Positions 174-26,899 of a stretch of 36,499 bases of DNA are shown here, one piece after another. The stretch lies in assembly GCA_947381435.1 (NCBI GenBank), contig CANCVE010000037.1, forward strand, positions 1-36,499. Reading direction: 5' to 3'. Under the pieces are notes generated by a model. It had not been told where the DNA came from and ran no database searches. It saw nothing but the letters and a program-made list of their open reading frames with translations. A program made the translations under genes and the position numbers. Origin of the DNA: Chitinophagaceae bacterium. GTDB lineage: Bacteria > Bacteroidota > Bacteroidia > Chitinophagales > Chitinophagaceae. Numbering within the stretch: the first letter of the stretch is position 1; every line of letters begins with the position of its first letter.

Positions 174-2021
174 ATGGCTAAGGATAAAGCAACAAAAAAG
201 GTATTTGATTTTAATTTACTCGGACGGTTATTCAAATATGTACGTCCTTACAGTCTGTTTTTTTATACAAGTTTGGCATTGGCAATTTTGATGGCTTTAA
301 TAACGCCACTACGCCCCTACCTCATCCAATTGACTGTAAATAAATCCATTAATTCTGCCTTGCCAATACCAATTTGGTTGCAAAAACTACTATCATTAAA
401 CACAAATAGTACAGTTTTTGAGTTCATCTTTCATATTACTATCTTTCAAATTGTATTCTTATTAATTGAAACAATCTTTAGGTTTCTATTTTCCTTCATA
501 ACATCATGGCTCGGTCAAAACGTAGTAAATGACCTTAGGGTAACTATTTATGAAAAAATAATGAGCCTGAATTTAAGCCAATTCGATAAAACTCCAATTG
601 GTACACTTACCACCAGAACAATTAATGATATAGAAAGTATTAACGATATTTTTAGTGATGGATTAATACCTATAGTTGCCGATATGCTTACCATAATCAT
701 TACCCTAATAACCATGTTTTACATGAATTGGAAGGTGGCATTAGTAAGCTTATTACCTTTTCCAATTCTTATAGTTGCTACCTACTACTTTAAAGAAAGC
801 GTAAACGCTAGCTTCATAAAAGTAAGAAATGCCGTTGCCTCTTTAAACGCTTTTGTACAAGAACACATTACTGGCATGCACATAGTACAGGCTTTTGCTG
901 CTGAAGATAGAGAGTTTAAAAAGTTTAATAAAATTAATACCGAACATAGAGATGCAAACATTAAGGCCATTTTTGCCTACAGTGTGTTTTTCCCTGTTGT
1001 AGAACTAGTGCTGGCACTCAGCACAGGATTACTAGTTTGGTGGGTAGCAGATAACAGGTTGGATGCGGGATTGCTTGTAGCTTTTATTCTTTATCTGAAC
1101 CAAATTTTCCGCCCTTTGAGAATTATTGCCGATAAATTCAATGTTCTACAAATGGGAATGATAGCTGCAGAAAGAGTTTTTAAAGTGATGGATAATGAGG
1201 ATGTGCTGCAAGAAAATCTAAAGTCAAAAGTCGAAAGTCGTGAAGAAGAAATATCAATTAATAATTATCAATTACCAATTAAAGGAAGCATCGACTTTAA
1301 AAACGTTTGGTTTTCGTATATAGATGAACAATATGTACTAAAGAATATATCCTTCTCTGTAAATGCAGGCGAAACCATTGCCTTAGTAGGTCATACTGGT
1401 AGTGGTAAGACTTCTATTATCAGTTTATTAAACAGATTATATAGCATACAGAAAGGAGAGATATTGGTAGACAATATTGATATTGATGATTATCCAATTG
1501 AGAAATTGCGCAGTAATATTGGTGTTGTTTTACAAGATGTATTCCTGTTTTCAGGCTCTGTCATGGATAATATTACACTACGTAACCCATTAGTTTCTAG
1601 AGATAGCGTTATTGAAGCAGCAAAAATGATTGGAATGCACGACTTTATTATGCAACTTCCTAATGGTTATGATTATAATGTAATGGAGCGTGGTAGTACA
1701 CTTAGTCTTGGACAAAGACAATTAATATCATTTGTAAGGGCATTATTATACAATCCTGCAATATTAATACTTGATGAAGCGACCTCTTCAATAGATACTG
1801 AAAGTGAAATATTAATTCAAAAGGCTATTGAAACATTGATTAGTGGAAGAACCTCTATTGTTATTGCGCACAGATTATCTACGATTAGAAAGGCAAATAA
1901 AATTATAGTACTGGACAAAGGGGAAATAAGAGAAATTGGAAACCATGAAGAACTTCTTGCCCACAAAGGGTTTTATAGTAAACTATACGAGATGCAGTTT
2001 GACAAATTAGTAAGCCATTAG
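174..2021 (+). CDS. MsbA-like ABC exporter, fused permease and ATPase
   Basis: A half-transporter of the type I exporter fold: about six membrane helices (residues ~25-320) followed by an ATPase domain. It would work as an inner-membrane homodimer exporting a lipid, drug or peptide; the substrate cannot be told. Visible ATPase motifs are Walker A GHTGSGKT (about 406-413), signature LSLGQ (about 510), Walker B ILILDEAT (about 530) and the H-loop IAHRLS (about 563). I chose the ATG at 174; a TTG at 147 would add nine residues (MTHTITFAS) that do not look conserved. The linker between membrane and ATPase domains (about 350-371) is longer than usual and is encoded by tandem 7-bp repeats (1220-1285), which keep the frame. 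It is monocistronic by position: a hairpin follows the stop and the atp promoter candidate lies beyond. Confidence 0.9.
   Translation: MAKDKATKKVFDFNLLGRLFKYVRPYSLFFYTSLALAILMALITPLRPYLIQLTVNKSINSALPIPIWLQKLLSLNTNSTVFEFIFHITIFQIVFLLIETIFRFLFSFITSWLGQNVVNDLRVTIYEKIMSLNLSQFDKTPIGTLTTRTINDIESINDIFSDGLIPIVADMLTIIITLITMFYMNWKVALVSLLPFPILIVATYYFKESVNASFIKVRNAVASLNAFVQEHITGMHIVQAFAAEDREFKKFNKINTEHRDANIKAIFAYSVFFPVVELVLALSTGLLVWWVADNRLDAGLLVAFILYLNQIFRPLRIIADKFNVLQMGMIAAERVFKVMDNEDVLQENLKSKVESREEEISINNYQLPIKGSIDFKNVWFSYIDEQYVLKNISFSVNAGETIALVGHTGSGKTSIISLLNRLYSIQKGEILVDNIDIDDYPIEKLRSNIGVVLQDVFLFSGSVMDNITLRNPLVSRDSVIEAAKMIGMHDFIMQLPNGYDYNVMERGSTLSLGQRQLISFVRALLYNPAILILDEATSSIDTESEILIQKAIETLISGRTSIVIAHRLSTIRKANKIIVLDKGEIREIGNHEELLAHKGFYSKLYEMQFDKLVSH
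1220..1285 (+). repeat. 7-bp tandem repeats inside the ABC exporter gene
   Basis: Heptamers AAAGTCA, AAAGTCG, AAAGTCG at 1220-1240 are followed by TGAAGAA and a GAA triplet, then ATATCAA, TTAATAA, TTATCAA, TTACCAA and TTAAAGG at 1251-1285. Total length is 66 bp, a multiple of three, so the exporter frame stays open. The first part (1222-1240) matches the intergenic tract at 24287-24305 at 18 of 19 bases. The second part matches the atpF-atpH spacer at 4251-4270. The encoded residues are charged and polar and fall in the linker before the ATPase domain. Confidence 0.75.
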
Positions 2022-2025
2022 ATAC

Positions 2026-2053
2026 AACTGTTTATCTTTTTGAGAAAACAGTT
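2026..2053 (+). terminator. Hairpin just after the ABC exporter stop
   Basis: AACTGTTT (2026-2033) pairs with AAACAGTT (2046-2053), and inside it TCT pairs with AGA after one bulged A, giving about 11 pairs and a five-base loop. There is no following T-run, so it may be an RNA 3'-end stabiliser or weak terminator. It starts five bases past the stop codon. Confidence 0.45.
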
Positions 2054-2113
2054 TAGAAACAATAGTTTACTGACATCTGTTAATAGTTTTTTCAGGCGAT
2101 TTTTTCTGTTGTC

Positions 2114-2145
2114 TTTCATTATTAAGCTCTATCCCCTTATCTTCG
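2114..2145 (+). promoter_or_regulatory. Candidate atp operon promoter
   Basis: TATCTTCG at 2138-2145 matches the Bacteroidota -7 consensus TAnnTTTG at all but one position, and TTTC at 2114-2117 lies exactly 20 bases upstream where TTTG is expected. Transcription would begin near 2152, giving a leader of about 12 bases before the atpB ATG at 2164. The trailing bases GCCG also follow the -7 candidates at 16467 and 32811. Inference from motif and spacing only. Confidence 0.45.
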
Positions 2146-2163
2146 CCGAAATTTTAGAAGGAA

Positions 2164-3270: not shown

Positions 3271-3302
3271 TTATTAAAGAGTCTTTTATTTTTTATTTAT
3301 AA

Positions 3303-3563
<261 letters not shown>

Positions 3564-3592
3564 TACACAGAGTTAGCAAGAACAAATTTTTT

Positions 3593-3625
3593 AAAGTACC
3601 CAAAGCACAGGGCGATGGGTACTTT
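3593..3625 (+). promoter_or_regulatory. Hairpin between atpE and atpF
   Basis: AAAGTACCC (3593-3601) and GGGTACTTT (3617-3625) are perfect 9-base inverted arms around a 15-base loop. No T-run follows, so it looks like an mRNA-stability or processing element, or a partial attenuator, rather than a full terminator. It lies just after the gene for the most abundant subunit. Confidence 0.6.
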
Positions 3626-3695
3626 ACTAATTACATCTAGAAAGTTTATTAGCAAAAGAGATAAAAAAGTTATCTCATTAAAAAATTAAATAAAA

Positions 3696-4190
3696 ATGGA
3701 ATTATTACAACCGGGGTTAGGCTTATTAGTCTGGACTTTAATAGCATTTATAGTTGTTTTCTTTATTCTTAAAAAGTATGCATGGACCTCAATCCTAACA
3801 GCTCTTAAAGAAAGAGAAACTGGAATTGCTGATGCAATATCTTCTGCTGAAAAAGTAAAGTTAGAAATGGCTTCTTTGAAAAATGAAAATGAAGCATTAA
3901 TGAATCATGCTCGTGAAGAAAGAGCAGTAATGATTAAAGAAGCAAAATTTGCATCTGACAAAATGATTTCTGAAGCAAAAGATAAAGCAAAGGCTGAATA
4001 CGATAGGATTATTGCTGAAGCACAACAAGCTATCAACCAACAAAAAAATGCAGCACTTACAGATGTTAAGAATCAAGTGGGTGCTTTGGTTATAGAAGTG
4101 AGCGAAAAAATCTTAAGAAGAGAACTTGCCAACAAATCTGAGCAAGAAAGCTACATCAAACAATTAGCAGAAACAGTGAAGCTTAATTAA
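3696..4190 (+). CDS. atpF: F1Fo ATP synthase subunit b
   Basis: Peripheral stalk subunit, 164 residues, close to the usual 156-170. One N-terminal membrane helix (about 7-27, GLLVWTLIAFIVVFFIL) is followed by a long charged coiled coil rich in Glu, Lys and Ala (about 35-135) and a C-terminal segment (SEKILRRELANKSEQ) that binds the delta subunit. The helix contains the LVWTLIAF stretch common in b subunits. It is fourth-to-last in the operon; the spacer to atpH is filled by 7-bp repeats. Confidence 0.93.
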   Translation: MELLQPGLGLLVWTLIAFIVVFFILKKYAWTSILTALKERETGIADAISSAEKVKLEMASLKNENEALMNHAREERAVMIKEAKFASDKMISEAKDKAKAEYDRIIAEAQQAINQQKNAALTDVKNQVGALVIEVSEKILRRELANKSEQESYIKQLAETVKLN

Positions 4191-4198
4191 TAATTTAT

Positions 4199-4264
4199 AA
4201 TTGACAATTGATTTAAGCAAATTGCTTATAATTCAATTATCAACTAAAAATTATCAATTATCAA
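4199..4264. repeat. 7-bp repeat element between atpF and atpH
   Basis: Left heptamers AATTGAC and AATTGAT (4199-4212) face right heptamers TTATCAA twice (4251-4264). Left and right are near reverse complements, so the transcript could fold with an AT-rich centre that contains AAGCAAATTGCTT. The same heptamer type occurs at 1251-1285 and 20751-20815. Confidence 0.6.
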
Positions 4265-4276
4265 TTAAAAGAGATT

Positions 4277-4840: not shown

Positions 4841-4946
4841 ATGATTCTTCCGTTTATAAATCTATTTACAAATACATTTCTTTAATAATTAGTACATACA
4901 TAACCAAATTCTTGAAAAAGAGTAACAGGTTAAAAAAACAAACAAT

Positions 4947-10178: not shown

Positions 10179-10588
10179 AATTTCAATTACTGTAAAACCT
10201 GCTAGCTTTACCTCCACTTGGTTCCAATTACTGTAAAACCTACTAGGTTTATCTTCCCTTGGTTCCAATTACTACTAAACCTACTAGGTTTACCTTCCCT
10301 TGGTTCCAATTGCTGCATAACCTGCAAGGTTTACCTCCACTTGGTTCCAATTACTACAAAACCTACTAGCTTTACCTCCACTTGGTTCCAATTACTGTAA
10401 AACCTGCTAGGTTTATCTTCCCTTGGTTCCAATTACTGCAAAACCTAATAGGTTTACCTCCACTTGGTTCCAATTGCTATTAAACCTACTAGGTTTACCT
10501 CCACTTGGTTCCAATTGGTGTATATCCTTACAAGTTTTGCTCCCATTGGTTCCAATTGGTGTATATCCTTACAAGTTTCGCTCCCAAT
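10179..10588. repeat. Ten-copy 41-bp tandem array (array 1)
   Basis: Units start at 10179 (diverged), 10220, 10261, 10302, 10343, 10384, 10425, 10466, 10507 and 10548, every one exactly 41 bp. Nine begin with invariant GGTTCCAATT, followed by about seven variable bases, then a conserved core AACCTACTAGGTT (often perfect inverted arms AACCTA/TAGGTT around one base) and a pyrimidine-rich tail. The joint TTGGTTCCAA is also an inverted repeat. The last two units share a divergent core (ATATCCTTACAAG). 41 is not a multiple of three and no gene runs through. The array fills most of the 10084-10784 gap between divergent genes; the rest of the gap (10084-10178 and 10589-10784) shows nothing recognisable. 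Confidence 0.95.
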
Positions 10589-10784: not shown

Positions 10785-11747
10785 ATGGCAAAGAAATCGT
10801 ATGGGTTGTTCACAAACCGTTTTGAATTGGTTACCCGTGGTAATCATAATGTAGCTGCTTACCTTTTTAAACAGCATGTTGACAGTCTATTTGCTGATAG
10901 CGCAATAGTACCTATAGCATTGACTTGCTACAACAGGGCTAATCCTAAGTATTTAGCTTTTACTGCTTGTACCATCACCCACAGTAGCCAAACCGGCAAA
11001 CAGAGTGGTAAAGTGTTGAACATGGATACCATACTGAATAGTATGCCAGCCCATGTGGACGACTGGGTAGCTAAAATAAAAGGGGTTTATAAAGCGGGTA
11101 CACCAGAATACAAGGCGCTCTTGCCTAAAGGCAAAACAAAGCTGAATCAGGGTAGCCAACAAAACAGGGTAGATGCTGTAGCTGCTTTATTAGAAACCAT
11201 TGGTACCGATGCTAGTTTGGCAGCCGTAAAAGTTATAATTCAAGCATTCTACGATAACATGCTTGCAGCGTTTGATAATAAAGATGTATCGAAAAAATCA
11301 ACTAAAACAGATAGTAAAGCAATAGAAAAAGCACGCAAAGGAATGTGCAATGTAATGCAGGGTAATTTTGGATTGATAACAGACGAATTTCAGGATGACC
11401 TCACTCAGGGCGAAAAGTATTTTGATGAGGCTTACATGAGTAACCCATTGCAGATGATTTTTAACTTGATGATAAAAATGCTCTCAACTAAAAAAATATT
11501 GAAACGCACATTTGCCAATCCACTCATACAACAATTACAGATTATAAACAACAGCAACACCACGCTGCACCTGTTTTTATGTGCAAGCAAATTGGGTGTT
11601 ATGGGAACTGTGTTTGTAACCATATTACCCAATAGCAATAGCACACACTTATTAACAGCTTTTGGTGATCCTACCACAGAAACTTTCCTGAAAGCTTACA
11701 ACACGGATGATAAGGTTAAAGCAGACATAACAGTGAAAGTACTTTAG
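10785..11747 (+). CDS. Uncharacterised 320-residue protein downstream of array 1
   Basis: I do not recognise a named family. The protein has no signal peptide or membrane helix, so it is probably cytoplasmic. An alpha-helical middle (about 105-215) contains GTPEYKALLPKGKTKLNQGS and a helix-rich stretch ending near DNKDVSKKSTKTDSKAIEKA. The C-terminal ~85 residues (about 238-320) alternate strands, as in a beta-sandwich (QLQIINNSNTTLHLFLCAS, then GTVFVTILPN). The ATG is preceded by a 196-base gap after the 41-bp array. The stop codon falls in the first of six 7-bp repeats, and a strong terminator follows. It is flanked on both sides by repeats, which could mean a mobile or recently acquired gene; this is inference. 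Confidence 0.7.
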   Translation: MAKKSYGLFTNRFELVTRGNHNVAAYLFKQHVDSLFADSAIVPIALTCYNRANPKYLAFTACTITHSSQTGKQSGKVLNMDTILNSMPAHVDDWVAKIKGVYKAGTPEYKALLPKGKTKLNQGSQQNRVDAVAALLETIGTDASLAAVKVIIQAFYDNMLAAFDNKDVSKKSTKTDSKAIEKARKGMCNVMQGNFGLITDEFQDDLTQGEKYFDEAYMSNPLQMIFNLMIKMLSTKKILKRTFANPLIQQLQIINNSNTTLHLFLCASKLGVMGTVFVTILPNSNSTHLLTAFGDPTTETFLKAYNTDDKVKADITVKVL

Positions 11748-11785
11748 TCAGCTATTAGATATGAGGTATGAGTTATAAGATATAA
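11744..11785. repeat. 7-bp repeats over the stop of the 320-residue gene
   Basis: Six heptamers in phase: TTAGTCA, GCTATTA, GATATGA, GGTATGA, GTTATAA and GATATAA, each with TA at the third and fourth base or close to it. The stop codon TAG (11745-11747) lies in the first. Confidence 0.55.
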
Positions 11786-11789
11786 ATTA

Positions 11790-11824
11790 AAAAGCCCTTG
11801 AAGCATACGTTTCAAGGGCTTTTT
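11790..11824. terminator. Bidirectional terminator
   Basis: AAAAGCCCTTGAA (11790-11802), eight-base loop, TTCAAGGGCTTTT (11811-11823): 13 perfect pairs, A-rich before and T-rich after. It separates the convergent orphan gene and RNA methyltransferase gene. Confidence 0.9.
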
Positions 11825-11871: not shown

Positions 11872-13047
11872 TTATTCGGAAGCTATTACCCTTTTTGTTC
11901 CTTCATATAGCTCATATTCCATCAATCGGCAGTCGATGGTAGCATTAAAGAACTCTATCTTCCTGCTAGTTTTAAGCCTAATCTTCTTTGCCAATGATAG
12001 GTTTCCTGTAAAAATGTAACCTGTATATCCCTTGCATTTATTTTTGAAAAAGTCGCCAATGCGTGCATACACGGCTTCCAATTCTGTTTCTACGCCCAAA
12101 CGTTCACCATATTCAGGATTCAACATCACTACTCCTCTCCCATCTTCGGGAATAGTTGTACGTTCAAAATCGCAGACTGCAAAAGTTATTAAATGTCCTA
12201 CGCCCGCTGCGATGGCGTTTGTTTTGGCAATATCAATTGCCAATGGACTAATATCGGTAGCAATTATTTTTAATCCTTCTACTTTCTTTATTTCTTTATC
12301 CAGCAATGCCCTTTCTGTAGTATAATACTCCGGCTGATAGCCTACTAAGTGCATAAATGCATAGTTGCTTCGCAATAAACCCGAAGTTCTATGGGTAGCA
12401 ATTAAAGCCGCCTCGATAGCCAACGTACCCGAACCACACATAGGATTTATGAAAGGTGTTTGCTTATCCCATTTGGTAGAAAGAATGGTTGCAGCAGCCA
12501 AAGCTTCTAACATAGGGGCTTTACCGGGCAACTTACGGTAACCGTGTTTGGTTAATGTTTCGCCAGAAGTATCTATAAAAACTTCGGCTTCATCATACTT
12601 CCAGAATAGGTTTATCACAATTCCTTTCAGTTCTGAACCCGTAGACGGACGTTGATTGGTTTTGTTTCGCATATAATCTACAATGGCATCTTTTACGCGT
12701 AGATTGGCAAAAAGATTATTGCTGATAGACGAATGCGACACATTACTTGTAACAGAAAAATAGCCATCGGGCGCCATAATCTTATCCCAAGCAATGGGCA
12801 ACAAGGCATTGTACAAATCATCAGGACTATTGCAAGTAAACTTCTTGATAGAATACATTACCTGACTACCGCAACGCAAATGCAGGTTTAGCCGGATGCA
12901 ATCTTGAATGGTACCCAATAGTGTTACGGACGTTTGCCCAATATCTTCTATCTCGTAGCCAAGGTCTATCACTTCTTGTTTTAGCGCAGGTGCAAGCCAT
13001 TTGTGGCAAGTAATAACGATGCGGCTTTTTGTTGTAAATATTTGCAT
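11872..13047 (-). CDS. THUMP-domain RNA methyltransferase, RlmL N-domain type
   Basis: 391 residues from the ATG at 13047; a TTG at 13056 would add only three residues. The N-terminal part (about 1-160) is a THUMP-type RNA-binding region. The C-terminal part is a class I S-adenosylmethionine methyltransferase with the UPF0020 motif FINPMCGSGTLAIEAAL (SAM loop), the acidic motif IIATDISPLAIDIAK, and the catalytic-loop motif LNPEYGERLG. In E. coli RlmL this domain makes m2G2445 in 23S rRNA. The usual NPPY is NPEY here. Function as a 23S rRNA guanine-N2 methyltransferase is inferred from family membership. Upstream of it lie 7-bp repeats interrupted by the IS element. Confidence 0.88.
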   Translation of the reverse strand: MQIFTTKSRIVITCHKWLAPALKQEVIDLGYEIEDIGQTSVTLLGTIQDCIRLNLHLRCGSQVMYSIKKFTCNSPDDLYNALLPIAWDKIMAPDGYFSVTSNVSHSSISNNLFANLRVKDAIVDYMRNKTNQRPSTGSELKGIVINLFWKYDEAEVFIDTSGETLTKHGYRKLPGKAPMLEALAAATILSTKWDKQTPFINPMCGSGTLAIEAALIATHRTSGLLRSNYAFMHLVGYQPEYYTTERALLDKEIKKVEGLKIIATDISPLAIDIAKTNAIAAGVGHLITFAVCDFERTTIPEDGRGVVMLNPEYGERLGVETELEAVYARIGDFFKNKCKGYTGYIFTGNLSLAKKIRLKTSRKIEFFNATIDCRLMEYELYEGTKRVIASE

Positions 13048-13075
13048 AAGGCACAAACATAAGCCAATACAGTGG

Positions 13076-13144
13076 TTAGATATTAGTTATGAGATATTAG
13101 TTATGAGATATTAGTTATTAGTTATTAGTTATTAGTTATTAGTT
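13076..13144. repeat. 7-bp repeat tract, left part, interrupted by the IS element
   Basis: Nine full heptamers in phase from 13076, mostly TTAGTTA with TTAGATA and TGAGATA variants, then a truncated TTAGTT at 13139-13144 where the IS begins. The tract resumes at 14754. Confidence 0.85.
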
Positions 13145-13169
13145 TGAGGTCTCATGAAATAGGTTGACG
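13145..13169. repeat. Left terminal inverted repeat of the IS3 element
   Basis: 25 bases, perfect match in inverted orientation to 14725-14749. Partial similarity continues inwards around GTTGATAAC (13193-13201 against the complement of 14708-14716). Confidence 0.95.
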
Positions 13170-13333
13170 TTTTTTCTCCCACTTTCAACTTTTGTTGATA
13201 ACCTCTCCAGTTAAAAAATAATTATTTCTCTTCTTTTGTTTTGTCAATGAGAAGCGTATGATGACCTTGTTCTGGGGAGCTCAAGCCATCTAGGAATATC
13301 TTTGACCAACGAAGAAGTTCTTTTTTAGAACTA

Positions 13334-13373
13334 AGCAGTAGTTTTTACAGTTTGTAAAACTACTGCTTTTTTA
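13334..13373 (+). terminator. Strong hairpin in the IS tail
   Basis: AGCAGTAGTTTT (13334-13345), then a bulged T and ACA, pairs with TGTAAAACTACTGCT (13353-13367): 15 pairs with one bulge and a three-base loop, followed on the + strand by a run of six T. A smaller palindrome, AGTTCT/AGAACT, lies at 13316-13332. On the + strand it could stop outside transcription from entering antisense to the transposase genes. Confidence 0.7.
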
Positions 13374-13395
13374 TGTTGAATCCATTCAACTAATT

Positions 13396-14328
13396 TCATA
13401 GAACTTCTTTGTTGTTTATGCCTCCCAAAAGCTCCCCCTTCTCCTTGGGTTGAGTAAAATCATACATTTTCATCGTGGGTCTCTCTTCAACAGGTAAATC
13501 CTTAATCCAGTTCTCAAATTCCACTGGTGTTCTGTAGCCCAAAGCAGCAACGGGTCTTTGTTCATTTATCATTTTCTTTATTTTATCTAATACGCTATTC
13601 AGTTGTTCCACCGTTGTTATCTGCTCATTGAGCAAATAGTTGTTTTTTAGTACATCATTTAGCTGTTCTGCCATCCCATTTTGCAGACAATCACCTGCGA
13701 TGCTTCTGCGTATCTGGCAATCTGCTATCAACTTCTTGTATGCCGTTGCCTTATACTGACTTCCTGCATCAGTGTGATGAATCGTTCCCATCAGGTTCTC
13801 TTTTTTTCTTAATGTTATCACCTGTTTCAGTGCCTTTATTGCATTATTTGCCAACATATTATCACTACCCACAAGCCCAACTATCATTTTACTATAGCCA
13901 TCTTTCAGTGTAAAAACATAGAATGTTCGGATGCCAACTTGTATGATATAGGTAATATCGCCTACTATGACCTGGTTAATACCCGTTAACTCAAATCCGT
14001 TTATCAAATTCACATCACTATCCTCATGAAACCCTTGTGTAGTAATAATCCTTTTACGTTTCTGACTAATACTATACCCATTTGATGACAACAGTTTCTC
14101 AAACTTGTTTATGCCTATTCCATCCAATTTCAAGGCGTAAAACAAAGGTCTAGACCCCATCTTCTTGTGGTCTTTGCGCTTCTTGTCTACCAGTGAAAGG
14201 ATTAATGCCGCGTCTTGTTGTGCTTTTGTCTTCTGTGACAAATGTTGGAAGTAAGCTTGTTTACTAATTCCAGCAATCTCGTACAAAAGAGTCTTGAAGT
14301 ACTTATCCTTCATCTTCTCTCTGCTCAT
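13396..14328 (-). CDS. IS3-family transposase OrfB, catalytic part
   Basis: 310 residues with an rve integrase core. The catalytic residues appear as D124 (VGDITY), D187 (HHTDAGSQY) and E221 (MAEQLNDVLK), with the expected basic residue seven positions after the Glu (K228). There are 33 residues between the second Asp and the Glu, whereas classic IS3 OrfB has 35; two residues seem missing before GDCLQNGMAE. The ATG overlaps the orfA stop as ATGA. The orfB frame is -1 relative to orfA and is open back past the slippery site, so it can be made either alone or as an OrfAB fusion. Confidence 0.93.
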   Translation of the reverse strand: MSREKMKDKYFKTLLYEIAGISKQAYFQHLSQKTKAQQDAALILSLVDKKRKDHKKMGSRPLFYALKLDGIGINKFEKLLSSNGYSISQKRKRIITTQGFHEDSDVNLINGFELTGINQVIVGDITYIIQVGIRTFYVFTLKDGYSKMIVGLVGSDNMLANNAIKALKQVITLRKKENLMGTIHHTDAGSQYKATAYKKLIADCQIRRSIAGDCLQNGMAEQLNDVLKNNYLLNEQITTVEQLNSVLDKIKKMINEQRPVAALGYRTPVEFENWIKDLPVEERPTMKMYDFTQPKEKGELLGGINNKEVL

Positions 14329-14687
14329 TTTGATTGCTTGGTATTGAACTTTTTTTTAAGATCCTCCCCTAATAACTCGTTGCCACATTCAATGACGGAC
14401 TCCAAGAATAAAAGATTCACCTGTTGCCGACCTATCACGCCCTCCAACTCCGATATCTTCTTTAATAGGGAAAGGTTTTTCGCTTCCTCGCAATCCTTTT
14501 CCAATACGATACGTTCTCCTTTAGGCAAAGTGTTAAACAACCCAACCCATTTATAAATGGCGGATTTACTCACTCCATAAACACGGCTTAGCTCGGTGAT
14601 GGTTATCTTTTTCGCAGCTAGCAACTCTACTTTCTCTTTCTTAAACTCGGTACTAAAATGTCTCACTTCTCGAAGTTTTACCTCCAT
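14325..14687 (-). CDS. IS3-family transposase OrfA, DNA-binding part
   Basis: 120 residues. The N-terminal helix-turn-helix (about 11-50) reads FSTEFKKEKVELL...TITELSRVYGVSKSAIYKW, the usual IS3 OrfA terminal-repeat-binding domain. A leucine-rich coiled coil follows (about 65-105) for oligomerisation. Near its end the mRNA carries CTT AAA AAA AAG, i.e. the zero-frame heptamer A AAA AAG. This is the classic -1 slippery site of this family and would give an OrfAB fusion entering the orfB frame through GTT CAA TAC. The gene ends 11 codons later at the ATGA overlap. Confidence 0.92.
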   Translation of the reverse strand: MEVKLREVRHFSTEFKKEKVELLAAKKITITELSRVYGVSKSAIYKWVGLFNTLPKGERIVLEKDCEEAKNLSLLKKISELEGVIGRQQVNLLFLESVIECGNELLGEDLKKKFNTKQSK

Positions 14688-14724
14688 AAAAATACGTTTT
14701 CTGAAAAGTTATCAACCAACTTTG

Positions 14725-14749
14725 CGTCAACCTATTTCATGAGACCTCA
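14725..14749. repeat. Right terminal inverted repeat of the IS3 element
   Basis: Perfect 25-base inverted copy of 13145-13169, lying 37 bases upstream of orfA. The orfA promoter is expected here, but no clear TAnnTTTG box is seen. Confidence 0.95.
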
Positions 14750-14753
14750 GTTT

Positions 14754-14788
14754 TTAGTTATTAGATATTAGTTATTAGATATTAGTGT
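14754..14788. repeat. 7-bp repeat tract, right part
   Basis: Five heptamers (TTAGTTA and TTAGATA alternating, then TTAGTGT) resume directly after the IS. The stop codon of the reverse-strand membrane protein gene (14782-14784) is read from the last one. Confidence 0.8.
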
Positions 14789-16308
14789 TTCGGTTTACTC
14801 CAGAATATGATTGCATCATTAAACTTAGTTAATGTATCAATATCACGGTGTTTTCTTAGTTCATTAATGGGCATTATTGCAGGATTATAAAAGTCGTTGG
14901 TAAACCAGACTATATAGTTTCCATCGGTTTCATAATACTCTTTTAAATCAACTTTATGAACGGGTTCTGGTATTCTGAGCGCAGGCAGACCACTATAAAA
15001 GTAAACGGCATCGCATGCATTGGAGTAAATTTCTACATCGGGCTTAAAGTAATTGGGTTTGGCTTTTAAGAACTGAACAATATCACTTTCCTGCCAATCT
15101 AATTCTGTATAACCAGGAATGCCCGCATCTTTTGTCTGTCGTTGAAACTCGATAGTAGCCATTACCTGATAAAATTGCAAAGTCAAGAAAATAAGCATCA
15201 TTGAAATGACAACCAATACTTTTAAGAATTTTATTTTGATAGATTTGATAAAAGAAGGTAAGAAAAAAGAAATACTTATGAGTAATGGAATGTATGCGGG
15301 CGATAAAAGTCGGTTATTAATTTTTTCGTAACGAGAGATGGTAGAAGTAAGCAGAATAAACAGGATGTAAACGATACAAAAAGCGATGTTGATGGTTTCG
15401 AAGGTGGCAATCTTATCCATTTTAAAATACCGATACCCTAAACTAACTGCTACCGTAATTAATAATATTACTGCCAAGGAGATACAAACAATAGAATTGG
15501 TGGAGGTGATACGAAACCATTGCAACACAGTTTCTCCAAAATACTGAAGGTTTAGCCAGAAAGGAGTAATGCTTTTTTGTCTTACGCCAGTCATAGTGCC
15601 ATTTACGCTATCATTACGAACTAAATTTAATAACAATAAAGTGATGCCGCCTGTGGCATAAATAACCAAATGCAATAGTTTTAAACTCCATTTCACTCTT
15701 TTATGCAAGAAAATTAAGAGCAACCCTGTCCCCATTATGCTTAATCCTGCAATACGCGTATCGCAAGCTAAAGCTGTGAATAAAGCAGGTAATACTAAGG
15801 CTTTAATAGTAGGATGCTTTAAATATCCCCTAATAGATAAGATGAAAAAACTAAGTAATAATAGAAAGAGAGTTTCGCTCCATAGCATCGTAAAAACATC
15901 TATTAAGCAATAACTGATGGGTAAAATACTTAAAATGCCCCATTTATACCAATACTCTATTCTGGAAAAACGTTGAATGATGCATCCGTTTACAAATAGA
16001 ATAAGACCAACCAGAAAAGCATTGATAAAGGGCGCAATTACCAATACATCACTGGAAAAAAGCCAAGATAGGACGCCAAGAAATACAGGATAACCCGCGG
16101 GAAAGATGATGAGCGGGTTTTCATTGAACTCTAAAATCCCTTTACCTAGTCGAATATTTCTGGCTACACCAGCATAAGAAACAGAGTCGGGAGAGATACC
16201 AATTCCATGATAATTAGTGAAAATAAAAACTAGAGTTGCTCCAATAATGGCGGCAATTAGAGAGTCTAAATTGTGTTTTAATGACAGCACCCGCAATTTA
16301 TCCCTCAT
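14782..16308 (-). CDS. Polytopic membrane protein, probable GT-C-type glycosyltransferase
   Basis: 508 residues with about 10-11 membrane helices in the first ~370 residues and a soluble C-terminal domain (about 385-508). After the first helix (about 17-32) an extracytoplasmic loop carries SPDSVSYAGVARN. An acidic residue there (D41) is the hallmark of GT-C enzymes that use lipid-linked sugars, followed by the pattern '(F)PAGYPVFLG' also seen in such families. Acceptor and donor are unknown. The C-terminal part contains YSNACDAVYFYSGLPA and ends in WSKPKH. The stop codon lies in 7-bp repeat sequence. Divergent from parA across a 384-base gap. Confidence 0.65.
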   Translation of the reverse strand: MRDKLRVLSLKHNLDSLIAAIIGATLVFIFTNYHGIGISPDSVSYAGVARNIRLGKGILEFNENPLIIFPAGYPVFLGVLSWLFSSDVLVIAPFINAFLVGLILFVNGCIIQRFSRIEYWYKWGILSILPISYCLIDVFTMLWSETLFLLLLSFFILSIRGYLKHPTIKALVLPALFTALACDTRIAGLSIMGTGLLLIFLHKRVKWSLKLLHLVIYATGGITLLLLNLVRNDSVNGTMTGVRQKSITPFWLNLQYFGETVLQWFRITSTNSIVCISLAVILLITVAVSLGYRYFKMDKIATFETINIAFCIVYILFILLTSTISRYEKINNRLLSPAYIPLLISISFFLPSFIKSIKIKFLKVLVVISMMLIFLTLQFYQVMATIEFQRQTKDAGIPGYTELDWQESDIVQFLKAKPNYFKPDVEIYSNACDAVYFYSGLPALRIPEPVHKVDLKEYYETDGNYIVWFTNDFYNPAIMPINELRKHRDIDTLTKFNDAIIFWSKPKH

Positions 16309-16692: not shown

Positions 16693-17496
16693 ATGGCAAG
16701 AATAATAGGAGTAGCGAATCAAAAGGGCGGTGTAGGAAAAACTACTACGGCAATAAATGTAGCGGCAAGCTTAGCTGTGCTAGAGTACAGGACATTGCTT
16801 GTAGATGCAGATCCGCAGGCAAATAGCACTACAGGAACGGGCTTTGACTTGCATAATATTACTAGCAGTTTATATGATTGTATGGTGAACAATGCAAGGG
16901 CCGAAGACGTAATATTGAAGAGCGAAATACCTCATTTGGATATTATTCCAAGCCATATTGATTTAGTGGGTGCCGAGATAGAAATGATAAATTATCCTAA
17001 CCGCGAAAATGTGATGAAAAACATTTTAGCACCAATTGGCGATCGTTATGACTTCATTATTATAGATTGTTCTCCGTCGCTTGGATTGATTACCGTAAAC
17101 TCTTTAGTAGCATCAGACAGTGTTATTGTACCTGTACAATGTGAATTTTTTGCTTTGGAAGGACTAGGAAAACTATTAAATACAGTAAAGATTGTTCAGA
17201 GTAGATTAAATCCTCCTTTACAAATAGAAGGTATTTTAATGACGATGTACGATGGAAGATTGCGTTTGTGCAACCAAGTAGTAAGTGAATTGAGAAGACA
17301 CTTTGATGATATAGTTTTTGCAACCATCATTCATAGAAATACTAAACTGAGTGAAGCGCCAAGTGTTGGCAAACCAGTTATTCTATACGATTCTGATAGT
17401 AAAGGCGCAAATAACTACCTGAATTTGGCTAAAGAAATTCTTCAAAAAAATGAAATGACTAAGATGACCAATGAGGAAAGGGTTATTAGTGGATAG
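16693..17496 (+). CDS. parA: Chromosome-partitioning ATPase ParA/Soj
   Basis: 267 residues, deviant Walker A ATPase. KGGVGKTT (11-18) contains the signature first lysine (K11); LLVDADPQAN is the A' motif and FIIIDCSPSLG the Walker B region. There is no N-terminal helix-turn-helix, so it is the chromosomal Soj type that dimerises with ATP, binds DNA nonspecifically and is stimulated by ParB. ParB follows 101 bases later. The last residues (VISG) and the TAG stop are encoded by 7-bp repeats, so the C-terminus has been set or altered by a repeat. Confidence 0.95.
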   Translation: MARIIGVANQKGGVGKTTTAINVAASLAVLEYRTLLVDADPQANSTTGTGFDLHNITSSLYDCMVNNARAEDVILKSEIPHLDIIPSHIDLVGAEIEMINYPNRENVMKNILAPIGDRYDFIIIDCSPSLGLITVNSLVASDSVIVPVQCEFFALEGLGKLLNTVKIVQSRLNPPLQIEGILMTMYDGRLRLCNQVVSELRRHFDDIVFATIIHRNTKLSEAPSVGKPVILYDSDSKGANNYLNLAKEILQKNEMTKMTNEERVISG

Positions 17497-17530
17497 TTAT
17501 TAGTGGTTAGTTATTAGTGGTTAGTTATTA
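17483..17530. repeat. 7-bp repeats over the parA stop
   Basis: Alternating heptamers TTATTAG and TGGTTAG (first one TGGATAG), i.e. a 14-bp double unit repeated three times with a partial fourth. The first double unit contains the parA stop TAG at 17494-17496. Confidence 0.85.
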
Positions 17531-17597
17531 AAGAAATAGATTTATTAGATAAATGAAAAACTTTTGCATTTAGCATGAGTTTGAGTAATAAAATAAG

Positions 17598-20020: not shown

Positions 20021-20743
20021 ATGGGAAGAATTTTTGAAGTAAGAAAGGCCACCATGTTTGCGCGTTGGGATAGAATGGCCAAACAGTTTACCCGTATAGG
20101 AAAAGAAATAGTAATAGCAGTAAAAGCAAGTGGTCCAGACCCTGCAACAAACCCTGCATTGAGGCGTTGTTACCAGAATGCTAGAAGCGTTGGTATGCCT
20201 AAAGACCGTGTAGAAGCTGCCATTAAAAGGGCAATGGGTAAAGACACGGCCAACTATGAAGAAATTTTGTATGAAGGTTATGCCCCACACGGAGTAGCAT
20301 TATTGGTTGAAACTGCAACAGATAACCACGTACGTACTGTAGCAAACGTAAAGAGCCACTTTAATAAGGGGCATGGCGCATTGGGTAACAGTGGAAGCGT
20401 AAGTTTTCAGTTTAAGAAAGTAGGAAGCTTTAAGCTTAAACCAGAAGGTCTAAGCCTCGATGATTTGGAACTAGAATTAATAGATCATGGTTTGGATGAA
20501 ATAGGAGAAAGCGTTGGAGAAGAAGGAGAAGATATATTGGTATTGCGTTGCGCTTTTACTGACTTCGGAAACTTACAAAAAGCTTTGGAAGACAAAAACA
20601 TTACACCAATTAGTGCTGAATTAGAATGGATACCTACTACTACAGTTCCTGTTACTGATGAGCAAGCAGAAGATGTAAGTAAACTGATAGAAAGATTGGA
20701 GCAAGACGAAGATGTAAATAAGGTTTTTCATAACATGGGATAA
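20021..20743 (+). CDS. yebC: YebC/PmpR family (TACO1-like) regulator
   Basis: 240 residues, normal length. It starts [23 protein letters not shown], the Bacteroidota variant of the family's 'MAGHSKWANIKHRK' start, then the [16 protein letters not shown] and AIKRAMGKD segments and the three-domain layout ending in [23 protein letters not shown]. YebC proteins were annotated as transcription regulators; later work on relatives links them to translation of proline-rich stretches. The gap to dapB (97 bases) contains a 19-mer also found before atpB. Confidence 0.92.
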
Positions 20744-20750
20744 ACTTATT

Positions 20751-20815
20751 AATTGATAAATGACAATTTATATTTGTCGGTTATCAATTGTCAATTTTAA
20801 ATTATCAATTATCAA
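20751..20815. repeat. 7-bp repeat element supplying the DCC start codon
   Basis: Left heptamers AATTGAT, AAATGAC, AATTTAT (20751-20771) face right heptamers TTATCAA, TTGTCAA, TTTTAAA, TTATCAA and TTATCAA (20781-20815). The arms are near reverse complements. The ATG at 20760 lies in the second left heptamer, and the element codes for about the first 18 residues of the next protein. Confidence 0.75.
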
Positions 20816-21209
20816 TATTATTCTTTTTGATGGACTTTGCAATCTTTGTAACAGTAGTGTTCAGTTTGTAATAAAACATGATCCTAAAGCTGTTTACAGG
20901 TTTGCATCTCTTCAAAGTGAAGTTGGACAAAAGTTGTTGTTGGATAATGGTATCTCCATTACTAACAACGACCTTTCTTCTTTTATCCTATTAGAAAATA
21001 ATATAGTTTTTACTGAATCCACAGCTGCCCTTCGTGTTGCACGCAATCTTAATGGGCTACTTCCCTTACTTTATTTTGCTATCATTATTCCTCTATTAAT
21101 TCGGAATGCAGTCTATAAATTCATTTCAAAAAACAGGTATAAATGGTTTGGTAAAAGAAATGAATGCTGGATTCCTACAGTAGATTTGAAAAATAGATTT
21201 CTGGATTAA
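20760..21209 (+). CDS. DCC-family (DUF393) thiol-disulfide oxidoreductase-like protein
   Basis: 149 residues. The family signature is FDGLCNLCNSSVQF, with D24, C27 and C30, and then RFASLQSEVG, both typical of DUF393. A membrane-like hydrophobic helix (about 100-118) follows. The role is assumed to be thiol redox chemistry but is not established for the family. The usual domain begins at about residue 19; the upstream residues (MTIYICRLSIVNFKLS) are translated from a 7-bp repeat element. No other ATG, GTG or TTG in frame lies nearer the domain, so this start is the best available; a native start may have been displaced. Convergent with the AlkB gene. Confidence 0.85.
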   Translation: MTIYICRLSIVNFKLSIINIILFDGLCNLCNSSVQFVIKHDPKAVYRFASLQSEVGQKLLLDNGISITNNDLSSFILLENNIVFTESTAALRVARNLNGLLPLLYFAIIIPLLIRNAVYKFISKNRYKWFGKRNECWIPTVDLKNRFLD

Positions 21210-21235
21210 TCAAATTTAGCCTCTCTCCTATTCCT

Positions 21236-21841: not shown

Positions 21842-21844
21842 AAC

Positions 21845-22270: not shown

Positions 22271-22295
22271 ATTGAATATTATTTCTTACATAAAA

Positions 22296-22643: not shown

Positions 22644-22722
22644 AAATAATTTGTACAAATTTAAATACTCAAAGGTTTAGTGTAACATCAGACAGTATCG
22701 CTAAAGGGAATTTCCTAAAAAG

Positions 22723-22953
22723 CTACCTCGTTTGTTGTGCATTTATCCTATAACCTTCATAGCTATCCATAATGTATTGCAGGTACTTGTCCTTCGATTT
22801 AGCATCTAATAAATTATCAAACTCTTCTTCAGGAACATCTTCATACGCAAATGTGTAACCAGTAGCCACAAAGTGCACTTCTAATATTTTACTTCTCTCA
22901 TTATAGCCCACCAAATCTGCCATGGTGGAATCTAAAGGCACGTATTCAATCAT
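22723..22953 (-). CDS. KTSC-domain protein
   Basis: 76 residues that match the KTSC domain from end to end: Y-V-P-L-D-S-T at the start, then VGYNERSKILEVHFVATGYTFAYEDVP and a final YIMDSYEG. KTSC is named after a region at the C-terminus of some lysyl-tRNA synthetases; stand-alone versions are small proteins of unknown, possibly RNA-binding, function. Unusually the Ser after the first strand is followed by Thr and Met. It stands alone, 79 bases upstream of the IscA-type gene. Confidence 0.82.
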   Translation of the reverse strand: MIEYVPLDSTMADLVGYNERSKILEVHFVATGYTFAYEDVPEEEFDNLLDAKSKDKYLQYIMDSYEGYRINAQQTR

Positions 22954-23060
22954 CTCGTTTTCATTTAGTGATTTAAAAAAATCTGTAACTCAGTGTATGA
23001 ACACGAAAGATATAAAAAAATACAATCTGCTTTCTAAATATTTTTCCACTATGTTAGTTA

Positions 23061-24257: not shown

Positions 24258-24286
24258 AATATTTATTTATAATTTAATTTTTAATT

Positions 24287-24472
24287 AGTCAAAAGTTGAA
24301 AGTCGATAGTCTTAAGTAAAGAGTTAGTAGTTAATAAGATCAGTCATAACCTTAAAATCTATTTTTTTAAGTTTCATCTTCGGATAAATACCGCACAATT
24401 CGCCACTTTCCACTTACGACTTTTAACTTATCTCTACTTCTAACAACTAACCACTAATACCTAACAACTAGA
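24287..24472. repeat. Inverted pair of 7-bp repeat tracts
   Basis: Left arm 24287-24335 is seven heptamers, all starting AGT (AGTCAAA, AGTTGAA, AGTCGAT and so on). Right arm 24403-24472 is ten heptamers with the complementary ACT at fixed position, ending in CTAACAACTAG. The stop codon of the UbiA-like gene (24468-24470) is in the last one. The arms are inverted, so an imperfect long hairpin is possible. The 67-base centre shows nothing recognisable. Confidence 0.7.
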
Positions 24473-25367
24473 TTGCTCCTATCATCCCACACACTGCCTT
24501 CACCAACATTAATCCATCAATAACCGCAAGGTAATAGAGAATATGTTTCCTTTTGTATAAAGAATTTGCAACACTCATCATCAATACAAAAGGAATGGTA
24601 TTCATTACAACCCTAAGCAAAGAAAAATGTTGCGAAAACGCATACACTAAAAATGTTCCCAAACCTACAGTAGATATTGGAAGTAGTATTGAATAAATGG
24701 TTCTACGCAACCCAATCCTCACCACAAACGTCTTTAATTGTCGATTATGGTCTTCCGCATAATCCTTTATATCAAACATAATACATAATACAGTTATAAA
24801 CATGAAATTTTTGATGAATAACAATATTTTAAACAAACTGAAGTGATATTCCTTTCCTGCTGCCAAAGTAGAAAATACGACAGGATAAACCGATACAGCT
24901 CCAGCCCATACAAATCCTATTACAAACGGCTTTAACCAGCCAGTATCTCGCAGGTTATATTTTTGCAAAGCATGTGATTGAAACCCATAATATAGAAGTG
25001 CAACAAACGGAAATAGGAAGAATATTGACCAATAATAAAGTGGAATAGTAAAAAGATACGACCTTTGCTCAGCAATAAAAAAAACTAGTGCTACAGCAGA
25101 TAACAACCAAAGAATTTTTTGTGAAGCCTTTACCAACCGTTGATTATTATAGTACCAAACCTCTCTTGCATTATTTACATCAGGCTTTCCCTTATCTGTA
25201 TATGCATAAGTGTAATAAACCACCGTTGCCGAAAAAACTATCAGATAATATGCTAATGAATTTAATCTAGAACCCAATTGCACAGAAGACTCTATCGACA
25301 AAGCAACGGCACAAATGCCATAAAAGTAATTGCCAAAAAAGAAGGAACGAAAGAGGCGATATAACAA
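24468..25367 (-). CDS. UbiA-like membrane prenyltransferase-family protein
   Basis: 299 residues, about eight or nine membrane helices. The second Asp-rich motif of UbiA enzymes is visible as FDIKDYAEDHNRQLKTF (D199, D202, D206), usually followed by a Gly-containing helix as here (VVRIGLRRT). The first motif (NDxxDxxxD) is not recognisable. At its place is TDKGKPDVNNAREVWYYNN (about 57-75), which keeps two Asp but with different spacing. Transfer of a polyprenyl group to an aromatic or other acceptor is therefore uncertain. It follows the small lipoprotein by 11 bases, so the two are probably co-transcribed. Confidence 0.65.
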   Translation of the reverse strand: MLYRLFRSFFFGNYFYGICAVALSIESSVQLGSRLNSLAYYLIVFSATVVYYTYAYTDKGKPDVNNAREVWYYNNQRLVKASQKILWLLSAVALVFFIAEQRSYLFTIPLYYWSIFFLFPFVALLYYGFQSHALQKYNLRDTGWLKPFVIGFVWAGAVSVYPVVFSTLAAGKEYHFSLFKILLFIKNFMFITVLCIMFDIKDYAEDHNRQLKTFVVRIGLRRTIYSILLPISTVGLGTFLVYAFSQHFSLLRVVMNTIPFVLMMSVANSLYKRKHILYYLAVIDGLMLVKAVCGMIGAI

Positions 25368-25378
25368 GCTAAAGATTA

Positions 25379-25834
25379 TTATTTTACAAAAGTAATCTTA
25401 CCAGATTTAATGGTATCACTAAAATGTCCCTCTTTATCTCCCAAACAAAATTTAAATATAGAGGTGTCAGCCCGAACGTTACAAGTGCCGTTAGATATGT
25501 TTACCGCCCCTGTTATGGTGGTATTGAAAGCAAATGAAACGGTAATTTGACCAGTTTGGTTATTAACCTGCGTAAAACTAGGTACTTTATAGTTGTAGTT
25601 ATTTACATAGGTAGTACTATCGCACATCAGGGAGGTTCTTTTGATATATAATGTGTCTAGCGTACCAGATTTCTGAGTAAAATCAAAAGTAAATGTTAGA
25701 GCCTGACCACTCACAATTCTTGTTGCATTAACATTTTTAAAAATCAGTTGTGGGCGTGTGGTAAACTTATCTTTATTGCAAGAGTTTGCAATTATGACCG
25801 TTATCAGTAGCAGGAACCCTATTTTTGCCTTCAT
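25379..25834 (-). CDS. Small lipoprotein of unknown function
   Basis: 151 residues with a lipobox, IANSC, so Cys at about 19. The mature part is all-beta in appearance, with alternating hydrophobic residues (LTFTFDFTQKSG, then QITVSFAFNT). It contains three Cys in the mature chain that may form disulfides. No family recognised. The start is 48 bases from the divergent LuxE-like gene and the stop is 11 bases before the UbiA-like gene. Confidence 0.65.
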   Translation of the reverse strand: MKAKIGFLLLITVIIANSCNKDKFTTRPQLIFKNVNATRIVSGQALTFTFDFTQKSGTLDTLYIKRTSLMCDSTTYVNNYNYKVPSFTQVNNQTGQITVSFAFNTTITGAVNISNGTCNVRADTSIFKFCLGDKEGHFSDTIKSGKITFVK

Positions 25835-25882
25835 AATTAAATAATTGCTTCAAATTTACTCATAATACCCCAACAAATACTT

Positions 25883-26899
25883 GTGACCGATACCATCATT
25901 AACAATATTTTTTCAGTAACACCGCAAAGCTTCCATTCAGTGGCGGAAACGATTTATCGTTTTCAACTAGAGAACAATGTTGTTTTTAGAGAATGGCATT
26001 CAATGTTTAATGATAAACGATTAATGATTAATGAAAAAAATTCTCCATCAATCACTAACAACTCATCACTAACCCCTAACCACTATTTCCTTCCCATTTC
26101 CTTCTTTAAAACCAATAAAATTGTCAGCACAGAGTTCAATCCCGAAGCTATTTTTGAAAGCAGCGGAACATCGCAGACTATCAACAGTCAGCATTTGGTA
26201 AAAGATCTGTCCATTTATCATAAAAGCTTCTTCGAAGCCTTTAAATTATTCTATGGCGATATAAAAGAATGGTGCATCATCGGTTTGCTCCCCTCCTATT
26301 TGGAAAGGAATAATTCTTCGTTGACCATGATGGCGGATGAATTGATTAAGGCATCGAACCACCCCGACAGCGGATTTTATTTATACGACTTTGATAAACT
26401 GGAAAAAGTATTACTAAAACAAGAGGTTGCACAGCAGAAGACCTTGCTTTTGGGGGTAACATTTGCCCTATTAGACTTTGCAGAGCAACACACACTGAAA
26501 CTAAACTACACCACAATTATGGAGACCGGCGGCATGAAAGGAAGGCGTAAAGAGCTTACCCGTGCCGAAGTTCATGCCATTATATGCAAGGGATTTGGGG
26601 TAACTAAGGTTCACTCCGAATATGGTATGACCGAGCTATTGAGCCAAGCATATTCCTTAGGTTATGGACGGTTTATTTGCCCCCCATGGATGAAAGTTTT
26701 AGTGCGCGACGAAGATGATCCGCTTACCATCCGAGAAACAGGAAGGGGTGTTTTGAACGTGATAGACCTTGCCAACCTATACAGTTGTTCGTTTATAGCA
26801 ACCGACGATGTGGGTATTATTTACGAAGATGGCAGCTTTGAAGTGTGGGGACGATTGGATAATAGCGACATCCGCGGATGCAGTTTATTAGTGGTATAA
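25883..26899 (+). CDS. LuxE-like acyl-protein synthetase/ligase
   Basis: 338 residues from a GTG at 25883; no nearby ATG precedes the domain. It resembles the LuxE/ANL adenylate-forming fold: an ATP loop FESSGTSQT (91-99), the family motif SEYGMTE (about 245-251) and DDVGIIYEDGSFEVWGR near the end. LuxE activates a fatty acid for transfer to LuxC; neither luxC, luxD nor luciferase genes are here, so the acyl donor or acceptor is something else, perhaps a carrier protein. Residues ~43-67 are encoded by 7-bp repeats (26009-26087), an apparent in-frame insert between the N-terminal 42 residues and the core. Confidence 0.78.
   Translation: MTDTIINNIFSVTPQSFHSVAETIYRFQLENNVVFREWHSMFNDKRLMINEKNSPSITNNSSLTPNHYFLPISFFKTNKIVSTEFNPEAIFESSGTSQTINSQHLVKDLSIYHKSFFEAFKLFYGDIKEWCIIGLLPSYLERNNSSLTMMADELIKASNHPDSGFYLYDFDKLEKVLLKQEVAQQKTLLLGVTFALLDFAEQHTLKLNYTTIMETGGMKGRRKELTRAEVHAIICKGFGVTKVHSEYGMTELLSQAYSLGYGRFICPPWMKVLVRDEDDPLTIRETGRGVLNVIDLANLYSCSFIATDDVGIIYEDGSFEVWGRLDNSDIRGCSLLVV
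26009..26087 (+). repeat. 7-bp repeats inside the LuxE-like gene
   Basis: Left heptamers AATGATA, AACGATT, AATGATT and AATGAAA (26009-26036) are followed by a 16-base centre, then CACTAAC, AACTCAT, CACTAAC, CCCTAAC and CACTATT (26053-26087). Left and right arms are partly complementary. The frame is kept and yields a polar Asn/Ser-rich insert. Confidence 0.7.

Follow-up and report, generated by a model that had tools for sequence, protein, structure and literature searches.

Tandem repeats with a 7-bp period are dispersed over a 36,499-bp stretch of DNA from a lake bacterium, an uncultured member of the Chitinophagaceae (contig C37 of a 4.88-Mb, 231-contig genome; the whole stretch is here referred to as the window), where they lie between genes, against gene ends, and within coding sequence. 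What kind of element are they, and how do they arise and spread? Heptamer repeats of several phyla have so far been reported one at a time and explained by quadruplexes, translational regulation, or polymerase slippage. Those of Cyanobacteria, named STRR (short tandemly repeated repetitive sequences), are by description likewise tandem and dispersed. Here, we report that the tracts of the window belong to a numerous set of strand-polar elements that tend to follow stop codons directly, and that one site can carry different heptamers in related genomes, in frame even within proteins, which offers a testable signature of how such repeats arise and spread.

Periods were counted in 38 stretches (776,499 bp) comprising the window and 37 further pieces of its genome, from which three pieces first picked for their hits were excluded, and third-order Markov surrogates served as the null. 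This sample held 97 tracts of period 7, compared to 3, 3, and 2 in the surrogates; such tracts exceed chance, and the dispersed repeats noticed in a first-pass annotation are real. Periods of 14 and 21 bp gave 75 and 74 tracts, and all others from 4 to 20 bp gave 3 to 11 each. In a stricter scan of 436,499 bp that did include the three hit-selected pieces, 14 tracts had period 7, 21 had period 14, and one had period 9, with none at other periods from 4 to 18 bp and none in surrogates. Merging the tracts of the 776,499-bp sample left 83 elements, a density of about 107 per Mb that would extrapolate to ~520 in the whole genome were the sample representative. Across them we distinguish 39 canonical consensus forms, and many families coexist in one genome.

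Many elements have two inverted arms. For 29 of the 83 elements, the ungapped stem score was at least 14, a value attained by 2 of as many random stretches and by none of the 83 shuffled means; some of the stems so counted are adjacent terminator-like stems and not arms. A stricter rule left 19 arm pairs, two elements yielding two each; the GT-rich arm came first in 18 of them, and the inverted arms noticed at first pass are real. Seven two-armed elements outside the window, hand-picked as good examples and including those of the hit-selected pieces L034 and L033, fold with z scores of −3.6 to −13.5. Cores between arms are mostly locus-specific, the exception being one common to L031:17992 and L187:12977, and arms may be mosaics of two families (24287-24472 in the window; L189:12898). 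Among chains of the TTAGTKR family (n = 95, including orthologues of different species), TTAGTTG is the first unit in 47, versus 43 of 303 later units (p = 1e-11), which means that this family has preferred ends. Only one of the 83 elements has GGG or CCC recurring every 7 bp, and quadruplexes are thus not the general reason for heptamers; four GG or CC are so spaced in 3 of 83. The sole element with GGG so spaced is a two-armed GGGAATC array (L174:11626-11724), a heptamer described from Xanthomonas.

The elements are placed and oriented with respect to genes. With gene models from our own hexamer gene caller (83% coding), 69 of the 83 elements are intergenic, 13 lie inside an open reading frame (ORF), and 1 is at an edge, in line with the first-pass view that dispersed arrays of the heptanucleotide-repeat kind enter coding sequence. 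Intergenic elements fall between co-directional (41), convergent (22), and divergent (6) genes; gene pairs separated by 30 bp or more number 410 and divide into 280, 59, and 71, respectively, so that elements are over-represented in convergent gaps (odds 2.8, p = 8e-4) and perhaps under-represented in divergent ones (p = 0.08). The median distance to the upstream stop is 1 nt, with 64% of 85 cases at 10 nt or less; positions drawn at random within those gaps give 28 nt and 34%. The distance to starts exceeds random (median 58 versus 38). The sense strand after the stop is GT-rich in 32 of 35 clear cases; with weak cases included, near-stop polarity is GT in 46, AC in 9, and tied in 8 (n = 63). 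Stop codons inside the array were considered as the cause of this polarity and rejected, since consensus units that contain none are polar too (GT sense in 7 of 8, the exception being a CCGTTTA array, possibly misread by the rule). Templating of the array on the stop codon was also rejected: the stop occurs in six of seven registers (0, 2, 3, 4, 5, and 6, in 6, 4, 7, 6, 1, and 8 of 32 cases). All-frame stop arrays fail as a general purpose, some consensus units having no sense-strand stop. The polarity and gene-end rule thus holds in mostly AT-rich arrays, independently of GGG tracts, and is not explained by array stops.

The window contains the following features (dots in place of a strand mean that none was assigned).

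1212..1284, plus strand: AAAGTCG and then TCAATTA units, in frame within the linker that an ABC transporter gene encodes (147-2021; PF00664 and PF00005; Tandem Repeats Finder, TRF).
4182..4270, strand (.): hairpin of two AATTGAT arms that occupies the space between atpF and atpH (folding energy −17.7 kcal/mol, z −4.2).
11747..11794, plus strand: single GT-sense array of GATATGA type, directly 3' of the stop of gene 10785-11747.
11789-11824: separate T-tailed stem after the GATATGA-type array.
13071..13144, strand (.): left part of a split TTAGTTA/TTAGATA array, upstream of gene 11872-13056 on the minus strand (TRF, register).
13145..14749, minus strand: IS3-like insertion sequence inside that array (genes 14325-14687 and 13396-14328; rve and HTH_Tnp_1 matches).
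14750..14792, strand (.): right part of the split array (register).
17479..17534, plus strand: single GT-sense TTAGTKR array that gives a ParA gene (16693-17496) its last codons and stop (orthologue comparison).
20751..20820, strand (.): two-armed AATTGAT hairpin between gene 20021-20743 and a DCC1-like gene (PF04134).
24287..24472, strand (.): mosaic two-armed element 3' of a UbiA-like gene (24468-25367, minus strand; orthologue comparison).
25999..26085, plus strand: in-frame element in a LuxE-like gene (25883-26899; PF04443), left arm TTAATGA and right arm CACTAAC.

Periodicity was found at all the places that had been named as strict 7-bp tracts, but several are imperfect. The middle part of 24287-24472 has no period; on the gene's sense strand, this element consists of TTAGTKR units and then AAAGTCG-type units, with an inverted AAAGTCG arm at the far end. 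The tract at 1220-1285 joins two families, AAAGTCG and TCAATTA. The places 13076-13144 and 14754-14788 are not two intact tracts: they flank a 1,605-bp insertion sequence (IS) with 25-bp perfect terminal inverted repeats and a 3-bp target duplication (GTT), around which they rejoin in heptamer register (31 of 35 period matches over the junction), and they are therefore one array. The IS-split array, strand polarity, position flush with stops, and motif switching at orthologous sites go beyond the first-pass annotation. Folding differs among the window elements, with z scores of −4.6 at the DCC1-like gene (fold of 20745-20820), −2.6 for the single-armed ParA array, and −1.36 for the LuxE-like in-frame element; the two arms of the ABC-linker array do not pair (z +1.35). 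Some members, including both coding ones in the window, are thus not good hairpins. Rfam gave no gathering-score match in the window.

Comparison with relatives suggested that sites outlast the words written in them. By AtpB, the closest named relatives are metagenome genomes of uncultured Chitinophagaceae. We label relatives' genomes G### and sequence pieces or loci L###, and call members of the window genome's genus “genus mates”; the nearest of these is G005 (AtpB identity, 93%), to which L120 appears to belong by identity and position. We compared 20 self-chosen elements, judging families and switches by eye; 7 of these lie in L022 and 1 in L034, both pieces initially selected for pattern hits. 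At least one genus mate provided an orthologous segment for 16 of the 20 and none did for 4. Arrays were often retained at the orthologous sites, including two in-frame protein sites, and at least 8 of the 16 sites carried another heptamer family in some mate. In genus mates, polarity was GT in 15 cases, AC in 0, tied in 1, and weak in 3. The atpF-atpH gap holds AATTGAT in the window and L120 and AGTTATG in five mates; farther out in the family, it holds AAGTTTA, GGTTCAT-like, or octamer arrays, and in Sediminibacterium and others, it is 2 to 3 bp long with no array. In the ParA gap, TTAGTKR stands 3' of the stop in the window and L128, and GCTAATA-type units precede the next start in four mates. 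At site L022:18334, the window genome carries TTAGTKR, whereas G005 has AAAGTCG, G002 has ATATGAA, and G010 has AGATAGT. Smaller changes also occur: L031:17992 and its G005 counterpart (L197) have a near-identical core, with one additional heptamer in G005. At the UbiA-like site, AAAGTCG is retained in three genomes. Different words at kept sites suggest that some process rewrites the arrays.

Between atpF and atpH, other Chitinophagales genera have octamer arrays of AATTTGAA and AATGTGAT types that bear inverted arms and form an 8-bp counterpart to the heptamer elements (L060:6941-6979, L064:7165-7193, L100:7075-7241, and L117:7076-7109). After the UbiA-like gene, L154 (G006) has a ~21-bp tandem repeat (AAGAAGGTCTTTATTTGGAAT) where the window has its heptamer element.

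Where arrays enter coding sequence, annotation is affected, as they give proteins stops, a start, and in-frame stretches, and orthologue alignment identifies the repeats as insertions relative to many orthologues, as had been supposed. Both proposed in-frame inserts are real. The ABC linker has AAAGTCG and TCAATTA in the window and CCGTTGA/CAACGGT in L048 to L051; the long insert is absent from most other aligned relatives, and short heptamer stretches occur in L080, L084, and L092. In the LuxE-like stretch, the left arm of the window is AATGATT and its right arm CACTAAC; L164 and L165 have AATGATT/CATTAAT, L163 has CAGTGAA despite 88% protein identity, L166 has TTAGTKR, and L167 has ATAGATA-type units. 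The stretch is equal in length in the window and four mates and shorter in L170 to L172. The reading frame is kept at both sites. Six rows of LuxE-like right arms, compared ungapped, agree to 97% at one phase of the heptamer and to 57 to 80% at the others, indicating that the register survives the family switch. Stop codons from arrays had been proposed for four genes. This holds for the ParA and UbiA-like genes, which terminate inside the array unlike their orthologues there, whereas the atpF stop is conserved in mates carrying another array; for gene 10785-11747, the orthologue search in genus mates gave no segment.

The proposed start codon from an array also stood. The hairpin at the DCC1-like gene contains the first in-frame ATG of that gene in the window, and the position at which G005, G002, G001, and G006 have an ATG, two codons ahead of a conserved I-I, reads ATC there. 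Upstream of the gene, G005 has TTATGAATATTATT and the window has TTATCAATATTATT, with the array-matching unit TTATCAA replacing the start ATG. Where G005 has ATGAAT, L140 (G003) has ATCAAT, which matches the array unit, and inspection by eye found no ATG, GTG, or TTG from the last in-frame stop to the conserved domain. It is possible that G003 lost this start codon through homogenization of the array, or that it uses a noncanonical start.

The heptad trait is patchy across Bacteroidota. Four consecutive AGTNNNN units, expected ~0.5 times per genome by a rough estimate at equal base frequencies, match at least once in 282 of 395 Bacteroidota genomes, and many genomes have none. Relative to the reversed pattern, matches number 1,050 versus 90 in the window genome, 118 versus 1 in G103, 84 versus 1 in G326, and 210 versus 7 in G217; the reversed (TGA) pattern is commoner in some genomes (39 versus 1,041 in G329 and 3 versus 632 in G216), where we take it as a heptad family of its own and hence a poor null. 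Within the genus, 10 of the 13 genomes have 20 to 398 matches to three consecutive TTAGTNN units, and G004, G008, and G012 have 0, 0, and 5, respectively. At 74 named loci of other genera (740,770 bp), there were 42 tracts of period 7, 27 of period 6, and 17 of period 8.

We favor the explanation, to which we assign a probability of roughly 0.4, that the elements persist at gene ends while copies made from other arrays replace their units and whole units slip. The tracts would form a large resident population. A member consists either of a single array or of two inverted ones that flank a short core, mostly specific to its locus; it lies in the space that follows a stop codon, and its GT-rich strand is the sense strand. 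Two-armed members would be transcribed as long hairpins. The site would persist by descent, and its units would be replaced through homeologous copying over short distances, by strand invasion or template switching, the likely donors being other arrays with a common scaffold and register. Slippage would add or remove whole heptamers. That the arrays bring a benefit at the RNA level, as a 3'-end hairpin or through insulation of neighboring cistrons, is a guess.

Several observations weigh against this explanation. No donor tract was traced for array copying in trans. Within the TTAGTKR family, arms belonging to the same element are no more alike than arms swapped between elements (18.8 versus 18.2; n = 21). 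Permuting units within an arm lowers the arm match across families from 17.3 to 13.2, with 16 of 19 pairs above permuted (Wilcoxon p = 5e-4), but this order match may reflect only family-wide order; coevolution of arm with arm, which the permutation had seemed to support, was rejected on the swap control within TTAGTKR. The preferred outer unit TTAGTTG and the one core at two loci better fit a discrete mobile element. Gain and loss would fit the absence of a heptamer array from most other mates at the UbiA-like site and of any clear array from all five mates at L022:11762. The excess of stop-flush arrays is small in genus mates (0.63 versus 0.54 at random, the random median itself being 9 nt). 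At the named loci of other genera, the stop-flush fraction is 0.40 versus 0.23 and polarity is GT in 4 cases, AC in 1, and weak in 9, and pieces of 26 genomes from other genera and families (423,902 bp) contain 6 period-7 tracts, all more than 10 nt from a stop.

The main rival is transposition of discrete hairpins, ~70-bp inverted repeats resembling miniature inverted-repeat transposable elements (MITEs) or REPINs (hairpin-forming doublets of repetitive extragenic palindromic [REP] sequences), inserted at gene ends by some transposase; different families would share gaps since only those gaps tolerate insertion. The TTAGTTG end preference, the shared core, the recurrence of families over many loci, and the array-free G003 site all agree with such mobility, which we nonetheless judge unlikely: at that site (L022:18334), the spacer is replaced rather than interrupted, no target duplication or clean insertion was seen, and cores differ at nearly all loci. 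Spread by copying of whole elements, one of two routes first proposed, is weakly supported. Y1 transposases (PF01797) occur in 32 of 39 relatives, including the array-poor G004, G008, and G012, and were not found in the array-rich G009 (67% complete). The other proposed route, slippage, is insufficient alone, given the first-unit bias of TTAGTTG and the fact that families differ as blocks. That slippage alone acts at each site independently, through gain, loss, and homogenization of heptamers, while selection preserves a hairpin or an RNA-binding site at the gene end, seems to us slightly more doubtful than mobility. This view draws on the one-heptamer difference between orthologues, the 14-bp double units, the strong hairpins of the seven chosen elements, and the idea of 7-nt slippage (Mrazek 2007, as quoted in PMC4679880 and PMC4692102), but units are not exchangeable along the array, the same families appear at many loci and in different species, mosaics have sharp borders, and single-armed arrays and the nonpairing ABC insert exist.

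Mobilization by REP-associated tyrosine transposases (RAYTs), intrinsic termination, and phase variation are poorly supported. On the flanks of 19 Y1 genes, some of them cut by contig ends, RAYT/Y1 was rejected as the mover, a period-7 tract lying within 800 to 900 bp of 1 of these genes (L289). That the arrays are terminators that happen to have a 7-bp period would suit their position after stops and the convergent enrichment, but separate T-tailed terminator-like stems stand beside or between arms at L184:8057-8231, L025:12736-12857, and window 11789-11824. Since such stems lie between inverted arms at convergent pairs (L025, L184), arms and terminator are separate features there. Of the 69 intergenic elements, 41 lie between co-directional genes, one of them inside the atp operon, and we consider this reading highly improbable. 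Still less probable is a role as phase-variation (contingency) repeats. Heptamer number can change, yet the ABC and LuxE-like inserts remain in frame, and the matches of ten scanned window proteins were ABC transporter, transposase, ParA, DCC1-like, UbiA-like, LuxE-like, and RNA methyltransferase, two having none. Least probable of all is an artefact of assembly or binning: the window genome and those of its genus mates are fragmented assemblies, but separate metagenome assemblies agree at one site (L047 to L050), and AGT-heptad matches also occur in the one-contig genome G016 (31; reversed pattern, 79).

GCTAG/CTAGC words lie within 500 to 700 bp of 17 of the 19 Y1 genes, some flanks ending at contig ends. 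RAYT-like Y1 genes, many of ~180 to 195 amino acids, occur in several copies per genome, some near contig ends (L287 to L292, L294 to L296, L298, L299, and L303), with GC-rich CTAG palindromes (AGCTAGTCCGCGT...GGACTAGCGG) nearby; together these apparently constitute a REP/RAYT system separate from the heptamers.

The arrays are of the known heptanucleotide-repeat kind, with newly seen family switching at fixed sites. According to Rehm et al. (2015, PMC4692102), GGGNATC/GGGGA(C/T)T heptamers of Xanthomonas and Nostoc are mostly intergenic, with few between divergent genes; the G-rich strand is coding near stops and noncoding upstream of starts, inverted pairs are convergent in orientation (70 and 75 cases), and two related species mostly have the repeats at matching positions, with varying length and sequence. 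Quadruplexes are discussed there, and three heptanucleotides in Calothrix are mentioned. Our elements agree in polarity (32/35), inverted pairs (18/19), gene-end position, and site conservation. They differ from what that text describes, one quadruplex-capable G-tract family, in having 39 consensus forms with GGG spacing in 1/83, other families at orthologous sites, and in-frame elements inside proteins. MacGregor (2015, PMC4679880) describes TAACTGA direct repeats from Beggiatoaceae, Cyanobacteria, and five Bacteroidetes; in the main genome, most of them precede start codons, and a single indirect repeat occurs. One family here includes the unit TCAGTTA, whose reverse complement is TAACTGA, and further likenesses are forward-orientation stop codons, some gene-end overlap, and the admixture of other heptamers in some Bacteroidetes; unlike those repeats, ours are mostly after stops, are often inverted pairs, and show several families side by side. 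Family change at one orthologous site is not reported in the available text of either paper. REP/REPIN sequences, as far as the consulted part of PMC3116915 describes them, are similarly dispersed extragenic inverted doublets that form hairpins, but here no Y1 link was found, the arms are 7-bp periodic, and the motif is different. Among the papers listed by searches of the open PMC literature, only MacGregor 2015 was found on heptamer arrays of Bacteroidota, and a search with six exact repeat strings returned only unrelated subjects. By analogy, the heptads of Bacteroidota, Cyanobacteria, Xanthomonas, and Beggiatoaceae might be one kind of element whose defining traits are its period, its strand polarity, and its place at gene ends, not its sequence; dedicated machinery (e.g., a template-guided polymerase or recombination in 7-nt register) would write and rewrite the units there. 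We regard this as improbable.

Finally, the window also contains two intergenic arrays of 41-bp tandem repeats (10184-10586 and 26968-27170), which are distinct from the heptamers.

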